Origin: Spirochaetales bacterium Spiro_12
GTDB lineage: Bacteria > Spirochaetota > Spirochaetia > Treponematales > Rectinemataceae
Assembly: GCA_001603165.1 (NCBI GenBank)
Contig: LVBN01000051.1
Span: 1 to 41,068 of the forward strand
Direction: 5' to 3'
Length of the DNA: 41,068 nucleotides
A model generated the notes under the pieces. That model worked only from the letters and a program-made list of their open reading frames with translations, ran no database searches and was not told where the DNA came from. The position numbers and the translations under genes are program-made. Shown piece by piece: positions 5,805 to 16,709 of the stretch; within the stretch, counting starts at the first letter, position 1; every line of letters starts with the position of its first letter.

Positions 5805-6824
5805 ATGAATATCGAATTCCACTACTACGCCCTGTATTATCTCTGCCGCAGCGCGGGCTTGCCTGAGGACTCCGCCTCGAAGATCGCCGTCTCCAGTCAG
5901 ATGGTTGATGAAAATCTCGCGGCCTGGGAGATCAGAGGCGGGGACAAGACCAGCCTGAGTATAGTTACACAAAACTACCAGTTTTGGGATGAAACCACGG
6001 CGAGGAGCATCTACCGCCCCTTTCATTTTTTGCCGGGCGAAAAGGCCAAAGCCGATTCGTATCGAAGGGACGGAAGGGCGGGGAAATACCCGGTGACCGC
6101 CGATTCCCCCTTGGCCAGGGAAATTCTCATCGCCGCGTTAAGAAGCGGGAATCCTTACAGAATCGGCGTAGCCTTACACGCCTACGCCGACACCTGGGCG
6201 CACCAGAACTTTTCCGCGGACCAGGAGCCCCAGAACGCCCTCGATCCCCGATCGCCCCTTCCTCCGGTGGGACATCTCCAGGCGCTCAAACACCCGGACA
6301 ATCCCAGGCTCGTTTGGAAAGACCCCAGGCTCAAGGACGAGTACGTCGATGTGCGCAATGCCCAGCGATTCTCCCAGGCCGCCACCATGATCTATCGATT
6401 CTTGACAACCTACAGAAAAAAAGGATTCGAAGACGAGGTTTTCGTCATCGGTAGGCTCGGGGAGCTATGGGAGAACGATGGCGGGACAAGAGGCGGCCTT
6501 GCGGGGGAAGACAGCCTCGCCCGGGCATCGGATTATATCATCGAATTCGATATTCCGCCCTATGAACCCGAAGCCTGGATCCGGCGCCTTGGAGCTCAGG
6601 CAAAAGGCCTTTTGGGGATGGACTCGGCCCCAGAGAAGCTCGGTTACGACCGGCTCTCATGGATCAGGCATGCCGCCACCAAGGCTTCCTCCGCCCTAGG
6701 CTCGACCCGAGGAAGCATCACCCGGGCTTCATATGAAGAATCCGATTTCGCGGCCTGGAACCAAGCCGCGAAAACTCATCTAGACTACTGTAGCCTAATA
6801 TTCGAACAACGAGGTATCGCATGA
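5805..6824 (+). CDS. DUF6765-like protein, possible metal-dependent hydrolase fold
   Basis: This 339-residue protein resembles the DUF6765 family by pattern: an N-terminal FHYYALYYL, then QMVDE, RPFHFLPG, ALHAYADTWAHQNF (residues 123-136) and VGHL. Conserved-looking His/Asp residues (H6, D35, H74, H125, D129, H133, H157) resemble the metal-ligand spacing of the helical zinc phospholipase C/S1 nuclease fold, but that link is my inference. There is no signal peptide. ATG 5805 is chosen because the conserved segment starts there; the open frame extends further upstream but overlaps ndk on the other strand. No clear ribosome-binding site is visible. The stop overlaps the next gene's start (ATGA), so the lipoprotein is probably its partner. 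Confidence 0.7.
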   Translation: MNIEFHYYALYYLCRSAGLPEDSASKIAVSSQMVDENLAAWEIRGGDKTSLSIVTQNYQFWDETTARSIYRPFHFLPGEKAKADSYRRDGRAGKYPVTADSPLAREILIAALRSGNPYRIGVALHAYADTWAHQNFSADQEPQNALDPRSPLPPVGHLQALKHPDNPRLVWKDPRLKDEYVDVRNAQRFSQAATMIYRFLTTYRKKGFEDEVFVIGRLGELWENDGGTRGGLAGEDSLARASDYIIEFDIPPYEPEAWIRRLGAQAKGLLGMDSAPEKLGYDRLSWIRHAATKASSALGSTRGSITRASYEESDFAAWNQAAKTHLDYCSLIFEQRGIA

Positions 6825-7843
6825 AAGCATTCCATGGCAGGCGGCGCAGCCTGCCTGTCCTGTTCGTCGCATTGTCCGTACTTTTGCTGGTCTGGGGCTG
6901 CGCCCTCATACCCGAGGAAGTTTCCTTGGGCGAGCCTTCGGGATATCTGGAATACTCCCCCCAGATTTACGCCCGCTTATCCGGTCAAACATTGAGGGAC
7001 ATCACCAAAGGCATGGATGATAAGAAACTCTCGGATTTTCTTACATCCCTCATGCCAAACCCGAAGGCCAAGGGCGGTGGAACTTCCTCATCCTCCGATT
7101 CCACCATCGATACGTCTTTCATTAAGGAATTCCTGGACAAAACCAATTCCTTCGGCGCGGGGATTCGAGGGATCGGCAGCGATCAGCCAAAGGCCGAAGC
7201 GATATTCCTGGGTCGCTTTTCGCCCGTATCGCTCAGGCTGGCCTTGACGATGGAAGGCAGCTGGCGTCGCCTGGAGGACGGGGGCTACAGGTCGGCCCAA
7301 TACCCTCTCTATCTGCGCTCACCCCAGGCGGGATGGATACATTTGAGCACCGAGGCTGGTCCGCCCCCAAAATCCGAGCCGGTCCAGGCTTTTCCGGAAC
7401 GAATGAGAGCGATGGCGTCCTCGGATATTTTCATCAGCATCAACGAGCCGAAAATCCTTTTCTCCGGAACCCTTCCCCTGGAGGCATCGGCGATACCCCT
7501 CGAGACGGTGCTGCTCTCTGGTTTCCTGGAACGCCCCAGCGCTCCCGCCGTTCCTGCGGCGTCCTCGTCGAGCGCGGGCTTGGTAACAGACAGCATGAGG
7601 AACTACCTTGTGGAACTTCGGGTTGTGGTTAAAGACGAGGCTACGGCGAAGGCCTACAGACCGGTCGTACGCTTTCTCTGGGCCGCCGCGGTGGCCCGAA
7701 TTTTCGGGAACCGCAGCGATATCGCGTCCTTGCCCCTCAGCCTCGAGGGTGCCGTCTACGTGGTACGCGGAATCCGCCTGAGTGGCGAGGAAATTCGCCG
7801 GATCCTGAGTACCGGCGGTATGACGCGCGGTCCTACTTCCTGA
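6821..7843 (+). CDS. Predicted lipoprotein of unknown function
   Basis: This 340-residue protein begins with a basic stretch (RRR, 7-9), a hydrophobic core and a possible lipobox, LLVWGC, with C27 as the lipidated cysteine. Trp before Gly is unusual, but spirochaete lipoboxes are relaxed. A Ser-rich low-complexity stretch lies near residues 89-94. I recognise no domain in the rest. The start overlaps the DUF6765-like gene by four bases (ATGA), which suggests translational coupling and a shared role at the cell envelope. The last 11 bases overlap the end of the convergent hydrolase-like gene. Confidence 0.7.
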   Translation: MKAFHGRRRSLPVLFVALSVLLLVWGCALIPEEVSLGEPSGYLEYSPQIYARLSGQTLRDITKGMDDKKLSDFLTSLMPNPKAKGGGTSSSSDSTIDTSFIKEFLDKTNSFGAGIRGIGSDQPKAEAIFLGRFSPVSLRLALTMEGSWRRLEDGGYRSAQYPLYLRSPQAGWIHLSTEAGPPPKSEPVQAFPERMRAMASSDIFISINEPKILFSGTLPLEASAIPLETVLLSGFLERPSAPAVPAASSSSAGLVTDSMRNYLVELRVVVKDEATAKAYRPVVRFLWAAAVARIFGNRSDIASLPLSLEGAVYVVRGIRLSGEEIRRILSTGGMTRGPTS

Positions 7844-9269
7844 TGTAGCTAAACGAGCTTTGGGGAGCTGGACGGGCCCGCACGAAGGCGGCGAGCAACT
7901 CCACCAAAGCCTCCGGCACGGGATATGCGGGGTTGGTGAAGGAATCGAAGTTCTCGGTTTCGGTTTCGACCTGTTTCAGGACATAGTTCATCGAGGGAAC
8001 AATCCTCGCGGCGGCTTGGGGCCGGGCGTCCAGAAGTTTCTCGAAGGCCGCCGGCGAAACCTGCATATCCTTTTCTCCGTAAATCAGAAGAAGGGCTGTC
8101 TTGACCCTGGAAAGCTCCTTGGCCGGATCGAAGCCAAGCCAGGATTTCAGCCACGGAATCCGCTGGGAAGCAAAAAAATCCGCCAACTGGGGCGACGGCG
8201 AAGGAAAGGAGCGGTTCGATAGAATAGCCTCGGTGATAGTCCGCGCCTCATCCTGGAGGCTTTGGCTCAAGCCTTCCAGGGAGGATCGCAGAAGATCCAG
8301 CGGCCGCTCCCCCGATACGGCTATGGCGACCAACCCATCGACGAAGAACTCTTCCTCCGCAAGGCGGTTGAGCGCCGCGGCGCCGATCCAAGCTCCTTCG
8401 TTCATGCCCACAACGATTATCCGGGAATAGTCGCCCGATTCGATAAAGCCGGCGACAATCCGCGTCGCATCGTCGATGTGCTCATCCAGGCTTACGCTCA
8501 GCCCCGGCGAAGCCTTCGTATAGGCTTCTCCGGAACCTCGTTTATCGTATCGGAAGCTGGCTATCGATCGTGACGCCAATGCCCTTGCCAGAAGGGCGAG
8601 GCTGTCCGAGCGGCCGGGAACGTTAAAATTGTTTCCGTCCCTGTCGCTGGTGCCCGAGCCCGATACAAATATCACCAGGCTGGAAGCCGCCGAGCCCGAT
8701 TCGGGGATGAGAAGGGTTCCCGGAAGATGGCCGTCCCGGACTTTTACATTGATCTTTCTCTCGCCCGGATAAAGCTCCGCCTCCGTGGGCGATAGTCTGA
8801 AGCTCCCCTTCCAGGATTTGGAGCGGGCCGTCCCGACAACCGCGTCGAGGGAAGAGGCGTAAATACCCTCGAAGAGAAGATCCTCCCCCGGTCCCAGGGC
8901 GCCGAAGGAGAAGCTCAGCCTGGAGCCGGTCCAGGAAACCTCATCCAAGGGATACCCGAACATGGACTGCCCGGGAATATCCAGAAGCGCTCCCAGGCCC
9001 CGGTCCAACAACCTGAGGCTGATCGAAGCCTGGAGCGAAGAGCCTTCTTCCGCCGGGCTTCCCGGAGAGGCAGATTTCGTGCCGCCACGGGGAGCGGCCG
9101 GCCCCTTTGTCTCCTTCCTGATCGCTAAGGTACCGGTCCATACCCCGGATCGAATCCCCGTCGTGGCCTTCCCCGCATTTTCCCCCTCCGAGGATGCCTG
9201 GGCGGTCGTGAGCGGGGGAGCGAGAAGAAAGAGAAGAAGCGCCAAAAGAACGGGCGGCAGGGATTTCAC
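7833..9269 (-). CDS. Exported alpha/beta-hydrolase-like protein lacking catalytic Ser and His
   Basis: This 478-residue protein begins with a signal peptide (about 1-24, possible cleavage at TTAQA). It has an N-terminal beta-rich domain (about 35-180), then a bacterial exported alpha/beta hydrolase domain with VSGSGTSDRDGN (202-213) and FRYDKRGSGEA. The nucleophile elbow, normally GHSEG in this family, reads GMNEG (288-292), so the Ser position is Asn290. The catalytic Asp is present (EKDMQV, D401). The His that usually follows Asn near the end is Tyr429 (PSMNYVLK). Two of three catalytic residues are gone, so it is probably a non-catalytic or altered relative. The start is GTG, five bases after the adk stop, so it is probably co-transcribed with adk. 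Confidence 0.85.
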   Translation of the reverse strand: MKSLPPVLLALLLFLLAPPLTTAQASSEGENAGKATTGIRSGVWTGTLAIRKETKGPAAPRGGTKSASPGSPAEEGSSLQASISLRLLDRGLGALLDIPGQSMFGYPLDEVSWTGSRLSFSFGALGPGEDLLFEGIYASSLDAVVGTARSKSWKGSFRLSPTEAELYPGERKINVKVRDGHLPGTLLIPESGSAASSLVIFVSGSGTSDRDGNNFNVPGRSDSLALLARALASRSIASFRYDKRGSGEAYTKASPGLSVSLDEHIDDATRIVAGFIESGDYSRIIVVGMNEGAWIGAAALNRLAEEEFFVDGLVAIAVSGERPLDLLRSSLEGLSQSLQDEARTITEAILSNRSFPSPSPQLADFFASQRIPWLKSWLGFDPAKELSRVKTALLLIYGEKDMQVSPAAFEKLLDARPQAAARIVPSMNYVLKQVETETENFDSFTNPAYPVPEALVELLAAFVRARPAPQSSFSYIRK

Positions 9270-9274
9270 GGCAG

Positions 9275-9904
9275 TCAGGCCTTGATGGCCTCCATGAAAC
9301 GCTCATACACCCTTTCGGGGGCACCGGTGCCGTCGATGGTCAGAAGTTTGCCCTTGCCGCCGTACCATTCGACCAGCGGAGCTGTCTGGCTTCTGTAGGC
9401 CGACAACCGGGTCCTGATGGACTCCTGGCTATCGTCGGGCCTCGTGTATAAACCCGCGCCGCAGGCATCGCAGACACCCTCCACCGAAGGGGGCATGGAT
9501 TCGATGTGATAGATTTTCCCGCAGCCCGAACATATGCGACGTCCGGTGAGCCGCTTGAGTATCACCGAGTCCTCCACGTCGAAATTGATCACCCATTCGG
9601 GGTCGGAAATACCCGCCAAGGCTTCGGCCTGACCTGTGGTACGCGGAAATCCGTCCAGGATCCACCCTCGTTGCGCATCGTTTTGGGATAGGCGTTCCTC
9701 CACGAGGGCTATGGTAAGCGCATCCGGCACGAGACTGCCTTCGTCGAGTATACCTTTTACCTTTTTTCCCAATTCGGAGCCGTCCTTGATCGCGGCCCTG
9801 AAGAGATCGCCGGTGGAAATATGGGGAAGCCCCATCCGTCCGGAGGCCAGAGCCGCCAGCGTACCTTTGCCGGCCCCCGGAGGGCCGAGAAATACCATTT
9901 TCAT
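9275..9904 (-). CDS. adk: Adenylate kinase, zinc-lid type
   Basis: Adk interconverts ATP plus AMP with two ADP. The P-loop is GPPGAGKGT near the N-terminus, the AMP-binding segment is HISTGDLFR, and DGFPRT is present. The LID domain has a Cys4 zinc site (CSGC, then CDAC), as in many Gram-positive and spirochaete enzymes. I take ATG at 9902-9904 (209 residues), because GGAG lies about ten bases upstream; the in-frame ATG at 9913 has the same GGAG only one base away. The hydrolase-like gene follows after five bases and the NadD-like gene lies upstream on the same strand. Confidence 0.95.
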   Translation of the reverse strand: MKMVFLGPPGAGKGTLAALASGRMGLPHISTGDLFRAAIKDGSELGKKVKGILDEGSLVPDALTIALVEERLSQNDAQRGWILDGFPRTTGQAEALAGISDPEWVINFDVEDSVILKRLTGRRICSGCGKIYHIESMPPSVEGVCDACGAGLYTRPDDSQESIRTRLSAYRSQTAPLVEWYGGKGKLLTIDGTGAPERVYERFMEAIKA

Positions 9905-10022
9905 GCGTCGCATTCTCCAATACTTCTGAATTTTATCGCGAGCCCCGAGCGTATACTATTTGGTCGCTTCTTCCAATCCTCGGTCTGTTGCAGATTCGAA
10001 AACCTTTCGCCGAAGGCACTAA

Positions 10023-10961
10023 TCAGGACCCCGACCAAGGCTGGTTCATATTATACCTGAAAAGAATCTCGAGTTTATCCCTGATGCTTTCAGTGGGCAA
10101 AACCAGGGTTATCGCCCTGTTCTCCCTGAAAACAGTGCTCGATGGAGTTCCGACCACACGCTTTTCAATAGTCACCGGAACACCCATTTTCCGTATTCTT
10201 TCGAGATAAGGAACAAAACTTCCCTTTACCGATCTTCGCGCCACATGAATCGAGTGGCTGAACTCCACTCCCGACAGGGAAGCCTGGCGCCTCCAGACCC
10301 GCAGGTCCTCCTCAAGAAAATCGGTGGCGATCGGAAGGACATCGGAGCCGATAAGGTGGGTGAGTTCCAGCTTCATGCCCGTGTGCATGGCCACGAAGCG
10401 TCGGACGATTTCGATGGTATCCGCGTTCGCCCCAATATCCAAGGGTAGTATGAAGGGTTCGAAGAGGCCGGCCAGTTGCATTTTCGCGATCTGATAGCGG
10501 AAGGAATAATCGGTTTTCCGCGGCTTGTCCTGATTTTGGGCGCCTTCGGGTACGGCGATGAGAATATCCGACCTGTTGTGGCTGGAGGCGAGAAGTCTCA
10601 GCGCGATGGTGAGGTGGGTAAGTTGGAACGGATCGAACGAACCGATATAGAGGGCGACCCGGGCCACCCCCCCTGGATATCTTACGATTTTCGGGTAGTC
10701 CTTGGTATCCAGCGGTATGATCTGCCCCCTGGAAGCCTTCGTATCGATATCGAACAAGGCTTGTACGATGAGCTGTTCATAGTAGGCATAGTCCCGGAGC
10801 TCTCCCGGCCCAAGGTAACCGAGGTGCGGAAGGGATTCAAAAATCTTCTTCAATCGTTTGGCGAGAAGCTCCACCTTGGAATTGGAAAACTTTGAAGGCC
10901 ATAAACAGGGAAATCCCAAATCCTTGTGTACGGAAAGCCCCTGCCCTTCGGATCGATCCAT
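10023..10961 (-). CDS. NadD-like nucleotidyltransferase with altered HxGH motif
   Basis: This 312-residue protein has an N-terminal region of about 100 residues that I do not recognise, followed by a nicotinate-nucleotide-adenylyltransferase-like domain. The nucleotide-binding motif is GSFDPFQLTH (107-116): H116 is kept, but the first His of HxGH is Gln113. Other family landmarks are present: KPRKTDYSFRYQIAKMQL, IGSDVL (204-209) and the C-terminal SSTVFRE (274-280), equivalent to SSTxIR. NAD synthesis from nicotinate mononucleotide is the likely role, but the altered motif and extension leave other nucleotidyl substrates possible. The ATG at 10961 is preferred; an in-frame TTG at 11000 would add 13 poorly conserved residues. 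Confidence 0.72.
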   Translation of the reverse strand: MDRSEGQGLSVHKDLGFPCLWPSKFSNSKVELLAKRLKKIFESLPHLGYLGPGELRDYAYYEQLIVQALFDIDTKASRGQIIPLDTKDYPKIVRYPGGVARVALYIGSFDPFQLTHLTIALRLLASSHNRSDILIAVPEGAQNQDKPRKTDYSFRYQIAKMQLAGLFEPFILPLDIGANADTIEIVRRFVAMHTGMKLELTHLIGSDVLPIATDFLEEDLRVWRRQASLSGVEFSHSIHVARRSVKGSFVPYLERIRKMGVPVTIEKRVVGTPSSTVFRENRAITLVLPTESIRDKLEILFRYNMNQPWSGS

Positions 10962-11013
10962 GCCTACAGTATCCCTTGAAAAAAAGAAAAAGGCAATCAA
11001 ATTTGTTTTATGT

Positions 11014-11204: not shown

Positions 11205-11720
11205 ATGCCAACGACCCTTTCCAGTCAATCAAGTCCCGGCATCGAAGCGATCATCCAAAAACACAAGGGGACATCGGGAGCGCTGCTCAAGGTGCTGGAG
11301 AACGTACAGGAGGAGGATCCCAAACACTATCTATCCGAATCCTCAATGAGGAGCATCTCCTCATTGATGGGATTGCCTCTCTCCCAGGTATATTCCATGG
11401 CGACGTTTTACTCATTTTTCAATTTGAAGCCCCAGGGCAGGCACTCCATCGTCGTCTGCAGAGGCACGGCCTGTCACACCAGGGGATCGCTCGCCCTCCT
11501 CAACGAAGCTCTTTCGAGAATGGGAATCAAGGAATTCAAAGAGGAAGAGGAAAACTCGGCTACGAGCCTCGACGGTTTCGCTTCAATCCGCACCGTAGCC
11601 TGCTTCGGCCAGTGCGCCCTGGCGCCGGTGGTAATGATAGATGGCGTCGTGAAATCCCGCATGACCATCGGGAAGCTCGTCTCCCTCCTCGAAAAAATGA
11701 AAAAGGGAGGCGTCGAATGA
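11205..11720 (+). CDS. hydC: Hydrogenase subunit HydC, NuoE-like [2Fe-2S] protein
   Basis: HydC is the small thioredoxin-like [2Fe-2S] subunit of multimeric NAD-linked [FeFe]-hydrogenases and is homologous to NuoE of complex I. The 171-residue protein has the NuoE helical N-terminus, including LPLSQVYSMATFYSFF, and all four cluster cysteines: C85 and C90 (CRGTAC), then C133 and C137 (CFGQC). In known complexes HydC sits beside HydB and takes part in electron transfer. The ATG at 11205 has AAGGAGG ending four bases upstream. The stop overlaps the hydB start as ATGA, so the two are translationally coupled. It is the first gene of the operon. Confidence 0.94.
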   Translation: MPTTLSSQSSPGIEAIIQKHKGTSGALLKVLENVQEEDPKHYLSESSMRSISSLMGLPLSQVYSMATFYSFFNLKPQGRHSIVVCRGTACHTRGSLALLNEALSRMGIKEFKEEEENSATSLDGFASIRTVACFGQCALAPVVMIDGVVKSRMTIGKLVSLLEKMKKGGVE

Positions 11721-14700
11721 AAACCCAGACCGATCTCGGAACCCTGAGAAAAGAAGGATTATCCCATTTATTCAACGGGAAACCTTGGATCTCCGTCGGA
11801 TTGGGAACCTGCGGCATAGGCAACGGAGCCGACGAGGTTTTTCAAGCCCTGCAAGATAAGGCCACGGCGGAGAAGCTCGATCTGCGGATACGACAGGTAG
11901 GTTGCTTTGGTTTCTGCGCCGCCGAGCCCATGGTCATGGCCTACCGTCCGGGCAAGCCGGTACTCATGTTCTCCGAGGTAAGGGCCTCCAGAGCCCAAAC
12001 TTTACTGCGGGGCATGGCCGATGATGAAGCTTTCGACAAGCTGGCAAAGCTGGCGGAGGCTAAAATCGAATCCTGGGACTTCAGGACCCATTCTCTCAAT
12101 TTCGGCCAGGCCTATCCATTTTTACCCACCTGGAAAGAGCTGGCTTTTTTCAAAGGCCAGGAAAAATTGGTCTTGCGGGATTGCGGGCTTATAGATCCCG
12201 AGCGGATCGAAGAATATGTGGGTATCGGCGGCTATTTCGGCCTTCTCAAAGCCCTTAGCACCATGACTCCGGATTCGATTATCGAAGAGCTGAAGAAATC
12301 GGGACTCAGGGGACGGGGAGGCGCGGGTTTTCCCTCCTGGAAAAAATGGAGAATCATGCGGGACAACGTACTGGCCAAGCCCGGCGAGGCATACGTGGTC
12401 TGCAACGCCGACGAGGGCGATCCCGGCGCCTACATGAACAGGAACGAAATCGAGTCCGATCCCCACATGCTTCTGGAAGGGATAATCATCGGCGCCTATG
12501 CCATGGGAGCCACCAAGGGCATCGTCTATGTGAGGGCCGAGTATCCCCTCGCGGTGGAACGCTTTACCAAGGCTCTCGGGCAGGCCAGAAGCGCCGGGCT
12601 CCTGGGCAAGAACATACTTGGTAGCAAGTTTAACTTCGATATTGAAATAGTCACCGGAGCGGGCGCCTTTGTCTGCGGCGAGGAAACGGCCCTGATCGCA
12701 TCCATCGAGGGAAAGGCTGGCAGGCCTTCGCCGCGCCCGCCCTTCCCCGCCCAGCAGGGCTTGTACGGCAGGCCGACGACGATCAGCAATGTCGAAACCT
12801 GGTGCAATATTCCCCTCATAATCGCCCGGGGGGGAGACTTCTTCTCCACCTTCGGAACCGCGAACAGCAGGGGGACCAAGGTCTTCTCCTTCGTCGGAAA
12901 GGTCAGAAATACCGGCCTCGTGGAGCTGCCCCTGGGATCCACCCTCGAAAGCGCCGTTTACGGAATCTGCGAGGGCATGGGCCCAAAGAAAAAGATCAAG
13001 GGCCTGCAGTCCGGCGGCCCCTCGGGAGGCTGCATTCCCGCTTCGCTTTTCAAGACTCCCATCGATTACGAGCACCTTACCGAACTAGGGGCCATCATGG
13101 GCTCCGGCGGCATGGTAGTCATGGACCAGGACAACTGCATGGTGGACGTGGCGCGCTACTTTATCAGCTTTACCGCCAACGAATCCTGCGGCAAGTGCAC
13201 TCCCTGCCGGGAGGGCACTTCCCAAATGCTCAACATCCTCCAGGGTGTTTCCAACGGAGAGGCCAGCGAACAGGATCTGAAAACCCTGGAGTCCCTGGCC
13301 TTGGCCGTAAAGGATTCGGCGCTCTGCGGGCTCGGCCAGACAGCGGCCAATCCGGTGCTCACCACCCTGAAGTACTTCAAGGACGAGTATATCCAGCATA
13401 TAAAGGCCAAGCGCTGCCCGGCGGGCATTTGCGAAAATCTTTACGTGGCGCTCTGCGAATCCTCCTGTCCCTTGCACATGAACATTCCGGGATACCTGCA
13501 GCTGCTCAAGGAAAACAGGATCGAAGACGCCTTCGAGCTGACCCTGAGGGAAAACCCCCTGCCCGGCGCCCTGGGAAGAATCTGTCATTTCCACTGCAGA
13601 ATGCGCTGCCGTCGGGATATGTTGGACGAATCGGTGTCCCAGGGCGAAATCCACCGCTATCTGGCCGACACCATGTACAAGATGGGCAGAGAAAAGTCCA
13701 TCTACAACAAGCTTATCAAAGAAAAGCTTCCCCCCGGCGGCAAGAAGATATCCATTGTCGGCGCAGGCCCCGCCGGCCTCTCCGCCGCTTTCTGGCTCAG
13801 CAGGCTCGGGCACGAGGTTACGGTGTACGACGCCGAACAGGAAGCCGGCGGAATCCTGCGCTGGGGCATCCCCGCCTATCGCCTGCCCAAGGATGTGCTG
13901 AAAAAGGAAATCGCCTTTATCCAAAAATTGGGCGCCAGATTCATTTTCAACACGAGGATGGAAACCAAGGATCAGTGGCAGCGACTTTTGGACGCATCCG
14001 ACGCGGTGATCGTCGCCGTAGGCGCAAGCCATGAAATTGCCCTCGGCATTCCCGGCGAGGACATGAAAGGAGTCTTCGGCGCCGGGGAATTCCTCAAAAA
14101 AATCAGTGAAAACCAAAAAATGAAGCTCGGCAGCGAGGTTGTGGTGGTCGGCGGCGGTAACTCGGCCATCGACGCGGCTAGATCCGCCCTCAGGCTGGGC
14201 GCCACCGTCACCCTGGTATATCGGAGAGCCCGCTCCGATATGCCCGCCAACGCCGAAGAGCTCAACGGAGCCCTGGATGAAGGTATTTCGGTTCTCTGTA
14301 TGACCCAGCCCATAGAGGTGCTCGGCAAAACGGAAGGATCTTCCAAAAAAGTGAGCGCGCTCAAGGTGCAGCGTATGAAGGCAGGACCTGTGGATAGCTC
14401 CGGCCGGCCTACGCCTGTGCCCACCAACGAATTCTACGAGATTCCCTGCGATTCGATCCTCGTGGCTATAGGCGAAAAAGTCAGGATTCCCGGATTGGAC
14501 GGCCTGGACATACAGATGGAAAAGGACGGTCGCCTCAAGGTTGATCCCTACTCCCTCAGGTCGGCGAATAACAAGCTCTTCGCCTGCGGCGACGCGGTTA
14601 TGGGGCCGGCGACAGCCGCCGAGGCTATGGGGCAGGCCAGGGTGGTCTCGGAAGTGCTGGACGAGGTCTTGAGCGGTCAAAAACGTTTCTTCAAGCTTTT

Positions 14701-14917
14701 CAGGCATTTTGACTACAAAATGGAAGTTCCGTCGAAACTCACCAAGGCCAAAATGATCAGAGCCACATTCATACCCGTGGACGCCCGCAAGAACAATTTT
14801 ATGGAGATATCCCTGGGATACACGGGCGAACAGGCCAGGATCGAGGCGGAGCGCTGCCTGCGCTGCGACGTCCGGGACCGCAAGCGCGAAACCTACAGCG
14901 CCCCGGTCCAGGAATAA
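11717..14917 (+). CDS. hydB: HydB (NuoF-like) fused to a GltD/NfnB-like flavoprotein
   Basis: This 1066-residue protein joins two enzymes. Residues about 20-100 form a thioredoxin-like [2Fe-2S] region with C32, C63 and C67 visible. Residues about 150-560 are the NuoF/HydB core: FMN loop GRGGAGFPSWKKW (199-211), NADEGDPGAYM (230-240), and the [4Fe-4S] cysteines C491, C494, C497 and C537. Where HydB normally continues into a 2[4Fe-4S] ferredoxin, the chain passes through CPAGIC (567-572) into a GltD-type region. That region has further Cys (C580, C584, C623, C627, C631), an FAD fold (VGAGPAGLSAA, 681-691), a nucleotide fold (VGGGNSAIDAA, 811-821) and ACGDAVMGPATAAEAMGQ (956-973). YRRARSDMPA (835-844) hints at NADP(H). 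The expected role is electron exchange among H2, NAD(H), ferredoxin and perhaps NADP(H); bifurcation is inferred. Confidence 0.92.
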   Translation: MKTQTDLGTLRKEGLSHLFNGKPWISVGLGTCGIGNGADEVFQALQDKATAEKLDLRIRQVGCFGFCAAEPMVMAYRPGKPVLMFSEVRASRAQTLLRGMADDEAFDKLAKLAEAKIESWDFRTHSLNFGQAYPFLPTWKELAFFKGQEKLVLRDCGLIDPERIEEYVGIGGYFGLLKALSTMTPDSIIEELKKSGLRGRGGAGFPSWKKWRIMRDNVLAKPGEAYVVCNADEGDPGAYMNRNEIESDPHMLLEGIIIGAYAMGATKGIVYVRAEYPLAVERFTKALGQARSAGLLGKNILGSKFNFDIEIVTGAGAFVCGEETALIASIEGKAGRPSPRPPFPAQQGLYGRPTTISNVETWCNIPLIIARGGDFFSTFGTANSRGTKVFSFVGKVRNTGLVELPLGSTLESAVYGICEGMGPKKKIKGLQSGGPSGGCIPASLFKTPIDYEHLTELGAIMGSGGMVVMDQDNCMVDVARYFISFTANESCGKCTPCREGTSQMLNILQGVSNGEASEQDLKTLESLALAVKDSALCGLGQTAANPVLTTLKYFKDEYIQHIKAKRCPAGICENLYVALCESSCPLHMNIPGYLQLLKENRIEDAFELTLRENPLPGALGRICHFHCRMRCRRDMLDESVSQGEIHRYLADTMYKMGREKSIYNKLIKEKLPPGGKKISIVGAGPAGLSAAFWLSRLGHEVTVYDAEQEAGGILRWGIPAYRLPKDVLKKEIAFIQKLGARFIFNTRMETKDQWQRLLDASDAVIVAVGASHEIALGIPGEDMKGVFGAGEFLKKISENQKMKLGSEVVVVGGGNSAIDAARSALRLGATVTLVYRRARSDMPANAEELNGALDEGISVLCMTQPIEVLGKTEGSSKKVSALKVQRMKAGPVDSSGRPTPVPTNEFYEIPCDSILVAIGEKVRIPGLDGLDIQMEKDGRLKVDPYSLRSANNKLFACGDAVMGPATAAEAMGQARVVSEVLDEVLSGQKRFFKLFRHFDYKMEVPSKLTKAKMIRATFIPVDARKNNFMEISLGYTGEQARIEAERCLRCDVRDRKRETYSAPVQE

Positions 14918-14927
14918 GGGGGAAGCC

Positions 14928-16709
14928 ATGGAACAAAAACTGATTTCCATAAGCGTGGACGGAAAAAAGATCGAGGTCGATCCCGGGATGAACCTTATCG
15001 ACGCCTGCGCCTTGGCGGGCGCCAGTGTCCCCTCGCTTTGTTTTATGAAAGATATTTCCGCCAACGCTTCCTGCGGCGTTTGCGTCGTGGAAGTGGAAGG
15101 GGCCAAGGCTCTCGTCCGCTCCTGTGTCCAAAAGCCTGTCGAGGGGATGAAGATACGAACCGCCGGTCCCAGGGTGATGAGCGCCCGCAGAACGGCGGTG
15201 GAGCTCCTTTTGGCCAACCATCCAACCGATTGTCTCTCATGTATCCGCTCGGGAACCTGCGAACTGAGGGTTCTGGCTGAAACGCTGGGGGTGAGGGCCT
15301 CCCGCTACCCTAAGTTAAAAAAATTTCCTCCCCCCGACACGAGCACGGAAGGATTGGTCCGGGACGACTCTAAATGCATTCTCTGCGGCCGTTGCGTGGC
15401 CGCCTGCGCCGAAACCCAGAGCGTCCACGCCATCGCTTTTGCCGGGCGGGGGGCAAGGACAAGGGTTACCAGCTTTATGGACAAGGGCTTGGCGAACAGT
15501 CCCTGCATACAGTGCGGTCAGTGTTCGGTGGTCTGCCCGACGGCGGCCATAACCGAAAAGGATCAGTCCTCCGAGGTAATGGCCGCCCTGGCCGATCCAC
15601 GGTTGACGATGATCATCCAAACCGCGCCGGCGATACGAGCATCCCTCGGCGAGGCCCTGGGAATGCCTCCGGGCAGTCTCGTAACCGGCAAGATGGTCGC
15701 GGCCCTGCGAAGACTCGGATTCGCCAAGATTTTCGACACCCAATTCAGCGCCGACCTCACCATCATGGAAGAGGGAACGGAGTTCATCCAGAGAGTTCAG
15801 ACTGGCGGAACCTTGCCGATGATCACCTCCTGTTCGCCGGGCTGGATCAACTTTATCGAAACCTTCTACCCGGAGCTGCTGAGCCATCTGTCAAGCTGCA
15901 AAAGCCCCCAGCAGATGTTCGGAGCCGTGGCGAAGACCTTTTACGCGCAAAAGACGGGCATCGATCCAGCCTCGCTGAGGGTGGTTTCCATTATGCCTTG
16001 CACGGCCAAAAAGGGCGAAGCCGGCAGGCCCGAAATGGATTCCGCCTATCGCTGGTGGAGGGAAAAAGCGGAAAAAGACGGGACGAAGATGAGCAGGGAG
16101 CACTACAGGGACGTGGATTGGGCTATCACCACCAGGGAGCTTGCCCGTATGATCCGGCAATCGGCCATAGACATGGCGAGCTTGCCAGAGGAGAACTTCG
16201 ACAGCAGCCTAGGGGAATCCACCGGCGCCGCGACGATCTTCGGCAACACCGGCGGCGTCATGGAGGCGGCCCTGCGTACGGTCTACGAGATACTGGAGGG
16301 CAAAGCCCTCCCTCAGACCGACTTCCTCCCCGTCCGGGGCTTGCAGGGCATCAAAACCGCGGAGGTGCCGGTCGCCGGCATGAAGGTCAAGGTGGCTGTA
16401 GCCCATGGGCTGAAAAACGCCAGAGTCCTTCTGGACGATATCGCGGCGGGCAAGAGCGACTATCACTTTATCGAGGTGATGGCCTGTCCCGGCGGCTGCA
16501 TAGGCGGCGGCGGCCAGCCCGTACTGCCGGATATAGGGAAGAAACTGGCGCGCAACAGGTCGCTTTATATGGAGGATCTGCGCCTGCCCGAGCGGAAGTC
16601 CCACCAGAACGCCGAGGTAAGCGCCCTTTACAAGGAGTTCCTCGGCCAGCCGGCGGGGCATCTCTCCCATGAGCTGCTTCATACGAAGTACAAGGCGCGG
16701 ATTGTCTAG
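14928..16709 (+). CDS. hydA: [FeFe]-hydrogenase catalytic subunit HydA
   Basis: HydA makes or oxidises H2 at the H-cluster. The 593-residue protein has, in order, a [2Fe-2S] domain (C38, C49, C52, C66), a His-Cys3 [4Fe-4S] site (H98, C102, C105, C111), a two-cluster ferredoxin domain (C150/153/156/160 and C193/196/199/203) and the H-cluster domain. The H-cluster motifs are TSCSPGW (300-306), MPCTAKKGE (356-364) and EVMACPGGCIGGGGQP (516-531). The second Cys of the textbook TSCCPxW motif is Ser303. Proton-path glutamates in IMEEGTE are kept. An insert of about 20 residues (roughly 371-392, rich in charged residues) follows motif 2. GGGGGAAG-like ribosome binding (AAGGGGGAAG) precedes the ATG, ten bases after hydB. 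There is no signal peptide, so the complex is cytoplasmic. Confidence 0.95.
   Translation: MEQKLISISVDGKKIEVDPGMNLIDACALAGASVPSLCFMKDISANASCGVCVVEVEGAKALVRSCVQKPVEGMKIRTAGPRVMSARRTAVELLLANHPTDCLSCIRSGTCELRVLAETLGVRASRYPKLKKFPPPDTSTEGLVRDDSKCILCGRCVAACAETQSVHAIAFAGRGARTRVTSFMDKGLANSPCIQCGQCSVVCPTAAITEKDQSSEVMAALADPRLTMIIQTAPAIRASLGEALGMPPGSLVTGKMVAALRRLGFAKIFDTQFSADLTIMEEGTEFIQRVQTGGTLPMITSCSPGWINFIETFYPELLSHLSSCKSPQQMFGAVAKTFYAQKTGIDPASLRVVSIMPCTAKKGEAGRPEMDSAYRWWREKAEKDGTKMSREHYRDVDWAITTRELARMIRQSAIDMASLPEENFDSSLGESTGAATIFGNTGGVMEAALRTVYEILEGKALPQTDFLPVRGLQGIKTAEVPVAGMKVKVAVAHGLKNARVLLDDIAAGKSDYHFIEVMACPGGCIGGGGQPVLPDIGKKLARNRSLYMEDLRLPERKSHQNAEVSALYKEFLGQPAGHLSHELLHTKYKARIV

Follow-up and report, generated by a model that had tools for sequence, protein, structure and literature searches.

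Conserved pseudoenzymes of the α/β-hydrolase fold are best known from eukaryotes, the NDRG proteins and the neuroligins among them. Non-enzymatic proteins of this fold, such as NDRG3, are already on record: in the NDRG family and in other members of the fold, the catalytic triad has been replaced, the fold is kept, and the proteins are reported to lack enzymatic activity (PMC7022630). The closest described enzymes to the protein discussed here, P0001, are the EstD-like esterases (NF041096; lipolytic Family X, the type of EstD of Thermotoga maritima). EstD uses the Ser of a GxSxG motif and loses 96% of its activity upon treatment with PMSF (PMC6622161). P0001 is encoded in a window of 41,068 nucleotides, the whole stretch of DNA that was analysed, and it shares with these esterases an N-terminal domain followed by a hydrolase domain. 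It also keeps the acid of the triad, Asp401, but its catalytic Ser and His are both replaced. The closest solved folds belong to feruloyl and cinnamoyl esterases (LJ0536, 3pf8; GthFAE, 7wwh), which, unlike P0001, are active serine esterases without an N-terminal domain and are 19-20% identical to it. EstDZ2, of the HGGG type, was considered as a further relative and dropped.

The NDRG proteins are human (eukaryotic), and NDRG3 has substitutions at every triad position and a blocked pocket, whereas P0001 keeps the Asp and the loops neighbouring it; the origin of P0001 is independent of NDRG. What is new here is a bacterial, probably exported and lineage-wide case, in which the triad is lost by degrees and a lipoprotein gene persists as neighbour. 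Searches of the open-licence literature returned no description of such a protein, including in Treponema, and no matching paper on an inactive esterase, a null result of little weight. The replacement of Ser by Asn, Gly, Ala, Thr or His across sister lineages, with one member that keeps it, makes the route from enzyme to non-enzyme traceable within one family.

Catalytic positions and predicted fold

The P0001 gene (7833-9269, minus strand) is an open frame of 478 codons, from a GTG start at 9269 to a TAG stop. Directly upstream on the same strand is adk (adenylate kinase; 9275-9913, minus strand), with 5 bases between its stop and the GTG start. The protein begins with a putative signal peptide (residues ~1-24, assigned by eye; MKSLPPVLLALLLFLLAPPLTTAQA, ending TAQA), followed by an N-terminal β domain (residues ~36-165) and the hydrolase-fold domain (residues ~168-467). 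P0001 is thus probably an exported protein, and it would reside in the periplasm. Matches to Hydrolase_4 (2.9e-8) and Abhydrolase_6 (8.1e-8) both exceed the Pfam cut-offs. The top NCBIfam model is that of EstD esterase, NF041096 (residues 172-412, E 1.7e-17), at 63.6 bits, which does not reach the curated cut-off of 600 bits; this equivalog model is narrow, since relatives with intact Ser and His also score only ~90-120 bits against it.

Asn290 (codon AAC, 8400-8402, minus strand) occupies the nucleophile-elbow position, giving GMNEG in place of GHSEG, and Tyr429 (TAT, 7983-7985, minus strand) stands at the site of the catalytic His, giving MNYVLK in place of MNHVLK. Asp401 (GAT, 8067-8069, minus strand) is invariant among homologues wherever the site is covered. 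Of the residues that define an active serine hydrolase, P0001 therefore has the Asp and lacks both the Ser of GxSxG and the His. These assignments rest on several comparisons. The same genome encodes an intact EstD-like paralogue (contig C64, L051:811-2454) with GHSEGG and LNHLF motifs, and BLASTP places GMNEG of P0001 on its GHSEG, D401 on its Asp and MNYVLK on LNHLFQ. A search of the PDB with the single P0001 sequence gives no significant match, and an alignment profile is required; the family profile places GHSEG on GHSQG, and NHVLK on the C-terminal His region, of cinnamoyl esterase LJ0536, whose Ser106 is named in PDB titles. An AlphaFold2 model built from 46 sequences (pLDDT 91.6, pTM 0.87) predicts a strand at 283-289, residue 290 at the turn and a helix at 291-305, the classical nucleophile elbow. 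The solved folds nearest to the model are feruloyl and cinnamoyl esterases and a thermophilic lipase (Z ~24-25.5 over ~240 residues). The predicted structure, together with the Pfam matches, assigns P0001 to the α/β-hydrolase fold superfamily.

A preliminary description of this DNA had read GHSEG as changed to GMNEG at Asn290 and the catalytic His as changed to Tyr429, with Asp401 and the fold motifs retained, both changes clear in the DNA and the frame of 478 codons otherwise intact. This reading stands in full. The AAC and TAT codons are read directly; BLASTP to the paralogue and the PDB profile agree on both substitutions, as does the modelled elbow geometry for residue 290; and the acid aligns Asp on Asp within a predicted esterase-like fold. 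That description also held that a Ser/His pair elsewhere in the active site would speak against it, and none is visible. P0001 contains only two His residues, His181 and His264, and no His is invariant in the 19-genome subclade to which it belongs, His264 being present in 17 of the 19 members. Hydrolysis by a Ser-His mechanism has very probably been lost in P0001, as judged from its sequence.

The presence of an intact GHSEGG/LNHLF paralogue in the same genome raises the alternative that P0001 regulates or stabilises an active hydrolase as one of its subunits, such as the C64 paralogue or the DUF6765 protein encoded two genes away; pairing of an inactive with an active protein is a common mode of action for pseudoenzymes. 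The C64 paralogue is, however, just 23% identical and is encoded on a separate contig, and no sign of pairing was found, so that we consider a subunit role improbable.

Distribution, selection and the order of residue loss

Orthologues of P0001 occur in 25 of 30 examined genomes of f1, the family to which the window belongs, and in many genomes of f4, a second family in the same order, with few others in a phylum-wide sample; the named ones come from uncultured Spirochaetes, among them Spirochaetaceae bacterium UBA4077, UBA5556 and UBA6089 and Treponema sp. HJP_bin34. The 1.1 Mb genome G039 yielded no relative of the hydrolase. A maximum-likelihood tree of 66 sequences unites 40 spirochaete orthologues in one clade (support 100/99), a grouping further supported by position 444, which is Phe in all 39 clade members that have the site and Tyr in 70 of 70 homologues outside. 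The outside homologues compared, from Bacteroidota, Bacillota, Pseudomonadota, other spirochaetes and further groups, carry Ser, Asp and His without exception (70/70), so the replacements in P0001 amount to more than a chance difference. Inside the clade, position 290 is Asn in 28 members, Gly in 5, Ala, Thr and His in 2 each and Ser in a single one, leaving 39 of 40 without the nucleophile.

P0001 falls into an inner subclade of 19 genomes from 7 genera (support 100/100), marked by the signature M-N-E-G-[AS]-W together with M-N-Y-x-L-K. Position 290 is Asn in 18 members, and the sole exception, L018, has His (CAT); position 429 is Tyr in all 18 sequences that reach the site. In one of the 19 genomes the gene is broken across two contigs, each half bearing its part of the signature. 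Both sites show synonymous codon variation (AAC/AAT and TAT/TAC), and the recurrence of the changes in 18 further genomes with such variation shows that they are not sequencing errors. Homologues with the same two changes, which the preliminary description had proposed to look for, are therefore present across an entire subgroup of the clade.

Outside the inner subclade, 20 of 21 clade members still have His429 although Ser is nearly absent, so loss of Ser most likely preceded loss of His. L023 (G012:C131) alone in the clade has both Ser and His intact; it has Phe at position 444 like the other members, and may either retain the ancestral state or have reverted to it. By our own parsimony count on the tree, a single loss followed by one regain requires 2 changes, and at least five losses are required if Ser cannot be regained. 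A topology in which the 39 Ser-less sequences are forced together with L023 outside is 24.7 log-likelihood units worse (p-AU 0.055), a value that settles on neither one loss nor several. Another f1 member, L026 (G003:C10), has lost both residues independently (GHGEG, MGGALK); from its sequence, the double loss may have happened twice.

The frame is under selection, a point on which the preliminary description had proposed a dN/dS estimate. Pairwise dN/dS values for the hydrolase domain within the 19-genome subclade are 0.08-0.15 (Nei-Gojobori, own script), with dS near saturation in some pairs, and values in two f4 groups are 0.15-0.23 by the same method. Invariant columns of the subclade cluster near the former active site (32 of 66 there, vs 25 of 237 elsewhere; Fisher p 1e-10, given as a descriptive value). 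Retained residues comprise G204, G206, D209, R210, G212, N213, N214, R240, D242, R244, E291 and G292 and, in the C-terminal part, D401, Q403, N428, L431 and K432; M289, W294, Y429, Y250 and W373 have changed and then become fixed. Several of the former belong to a GSGxxDRDGNN loop (residues 204-216; 8622-8660, minus strand, as calculated from residue numbers) that is common to relatives with intact Ser and His. P0001 is under constraint, most of all close to where the active site was, and it has the two marks of a pseudoenzyme, loss of catalytic residues and conservation of sequence under selection.

Two alternatives bear on these patterns. Absence of the catalytic residues could reflect a decaying gene or an assembly error, as the residues are indeed gone. 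This explanation is rejected, and we give it practically no credence: the frames are open in related genomes, dN/dS is ~0.1, and the changes are common to 19 genomes of 7 genera. The earlier view that the gene is kept rather than decayed is well supported by the clade-wide double changes and the same dN/dS. A second alternative is that P0001 remains a hydrolase, or has become another enzyme, with a changed mechanism, based for example on Ser319 with Tyr429 and Lys432, or on deamidation of Asn290 to Asp. In its favour, Ser319 is invariant in the subclade, each of the 18 sequences that extend to positions 429 and 432 has Tyr429 and Lys432, and the DRDGNN loop has been retained. On the other hand, Ser319 does not lie at the elbow, no His is invariant to accompany it, and neither Ser319, usual in other clade members, nor Lys432, present in intact relatives, is newly gained. 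Residue 290 is Gly, Ala, Thr or His in sister genomes, a range that no single new chemistry fits. A changed mechanism is accordingly very unlikely.

The neighbouring lipoprotein gene

The gene order in the window is ndk (minus), DUF6765 (plus), lipoprotein (plus), pseudohydrolase (minus), adk (minus) and nadD-like (minus). The lipoprotein gene (6821-7843, plus strand; 340 aa, lipobox LVWGC) is convergent with that of P0001, the 3' ends overlapping by 11 bases, and lies directly downstream of the gene for a DUF6765 protein (PF20551; 5661-6824, plus strand). The lipoprotein of the window has no Pfam match, including to PF20740, the family of TP0453 of Treponema pallidum; its best-scoring orthologue reaches 26.1 bits against PF20740, just below the cut-off of 27. 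Searching the window's own genome with PF20740 gives no match, and the controls are equally silent; a sequence search of the PDB with the lipoprotein is likewise negative. An AlphaFold2 model of moderate confidence (pLDDT 77.5) is more informative. Foldseek matches it to TP0453 crystal forms only (E ~1e-11; next 0.05), and VIA-align superposes it on TP0453 with Z 16.4 over 230 residues (next best 6.6). All orthologues whose N-terminus is covered have a lipobox, which reads LALSC in the proteins beside L023 and L063, and in most of them the Cys aligns with that of the window protein in the profile. On the basis of this model, the product of 6821-7843 is predicted to be a lipoprotein of the TP0453 fold.

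According to a review, TP0453 is located on the inner side of the outer membrane, uses amphipathic helices to insert into bilayers and has been proposed to carry lipid (PMC5421087). The window lipoprotein has the fold and lipobox in common with it, but is only 13-15% identical, and its gene is paired with that of a pseudohydrolase. The link between the two offers a testable handle on how this fold of a syphilis spirochaete protein, with its proposed lipid carriage, functions in environmental relatives.

By HMM search, 35 of the 40 clade members, f4 genomes among them, carry the lipoprotein gene tail-to-tail with their hydrolase orthologue, with 3' ends from -96 to +178 bases apart; even L023 adjoins it. 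In three of the remaining genomes the two genes still converge, at distances of 6.2, 1.6 and 7.3 kb (G010, G063 and G066, respectively); in G043 the lipoprotein gene is on another contig, and the HMM search did not find it in G087. It is absent beside 5 of 5 nearest relatives with intact Ser and His (L029, L174-L177), as scanned over ~0.9-1.5 kb downstream, with 4 kb scanned for the f2 relative (as L064). In the clade, the lipoprotein gene usually stands behind DUF6765. This pair is found in many genomes, also where there is no pseudohydrolase (for example L203 and L204). In G020 (L210, G020:C58), adk is directly convergent with the lipoprotein gene and no hydrolase orthologue lies between them, an apparent loss. 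Taken together with the pairs that lack the hydrolase, this arrangement suggests that the hydrolase is a losable addition to an older pair. Searches of the PDB with the DUF6765 protein give just weak α-repeat and helicase matches and no solved relative, and a scan for promoters and terminators gives no signal above shuffled sequences.

Proposed function and other genes of the window

Because convergent genes do not form one transcript, adjacency is weaker evidence for partnership than an operon would be, and because the genes around the pair (ndk, adk and others) are generally conserved as well, its order may partly reflect inheritance. The gene for P0001 could thus encode a pseudoenzyme under selection for a role unrelated to the lipoprotein, such as a scaffold or a binder of cell wall or polysaccharide in the periplasm, with its position inherited along with the adk/ndk stretch. 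This alternative, to which we assign a real if minor chance, is favoured by the presence of adk and ndk at the flanks in most f1 genomes and by lineages that have the lipoprotein without the hydrolase. Against it, the hydrolase-lipoprotein junction is kept in f4 contigs with no adk found beside it, DUF6765 or adk is missing in some cases, and the nearest relatives with intact Ser and His lack the junction.

We lean slightly towards P0001 being a ligand-binding pseudohydrolase of the periplasm that works with the TP0453-like lipoprotein, the ligand perhaps being an acyl lipid. The preliminary description had suggested a role in binding or signalling; the neighbourhood, with its lipoprotein and DUF6765 protein, points to one in the envelope or in binding. 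That L023, with Ser and His intact, also adjoins the lipoprotein gene counts against the proposal. Cooperation with the lipoprotein itself, suggested by gene order, we hold to be an even call, and lipid as the ligand is a tentative guess, made because an acyl lipid fits both the esterase ancestry and a membrane-inserting partner. Under this proposal of a ligand-binding pseudohydrolase, the hydrolase domain would descend from an EstD-like esterase with a Ser-Asp-His triad; pocket features near the old active site (the GSGxxDRDGNN loop, Glu291, Asp401, Gln403, Asn428 and Lys432) are held by purifying selection. The ancestral hydrolase may first have become linked tail-to-tail to the pair of DUF6765 and TP0453-like lipoprotein genes, an order that is observed and from which a functional link is presumed. 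The loss of Ser, which 39 of 40 members lack, would have come next, either once with a reversal or several times, and in one subclade His has been replaced by Tyr, with Met289 and Trp294 newly fixed alongside it. The outcome would be a non-catalytic binding protein, with the lipoprotein on the inner side of the outer membrane as its likeliest partner, and the two may share or hand over an acyl lipid. A more elaborate version, in which the pseudohydrolase, the TP0453-like lipoprotein and the DUF6765 protein form an envelope lipid-transfer module and an esterase has been converted to a dedicated lipid-handling partner, is speculative and rather unlikely.

Other genes nearby are also of note. Between adk and a set of hydrogenase genes, a frame at 10023-11000 (minus strand) has a weak, sub-cut-off match to CTP_transf_like of the nadD type, and its position is conserved. 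The frame at 11717-14917 (plus strand; 1066 aa) fuses a NuoF-like subunit to a GltD/NfnB-like pyridine nucleotide-disulphide oxidoreductase, uniting Complex1_51K, Fer4_20 and Pyr_redox_2 domains. It is followed by an [FeFe]-hydrogenase gene (14928-16709, plus strand). Both are conserved in relatives, and the pair (11717-16709) resembles a HydABC-type complex to which an NAD(P)H module has been added.
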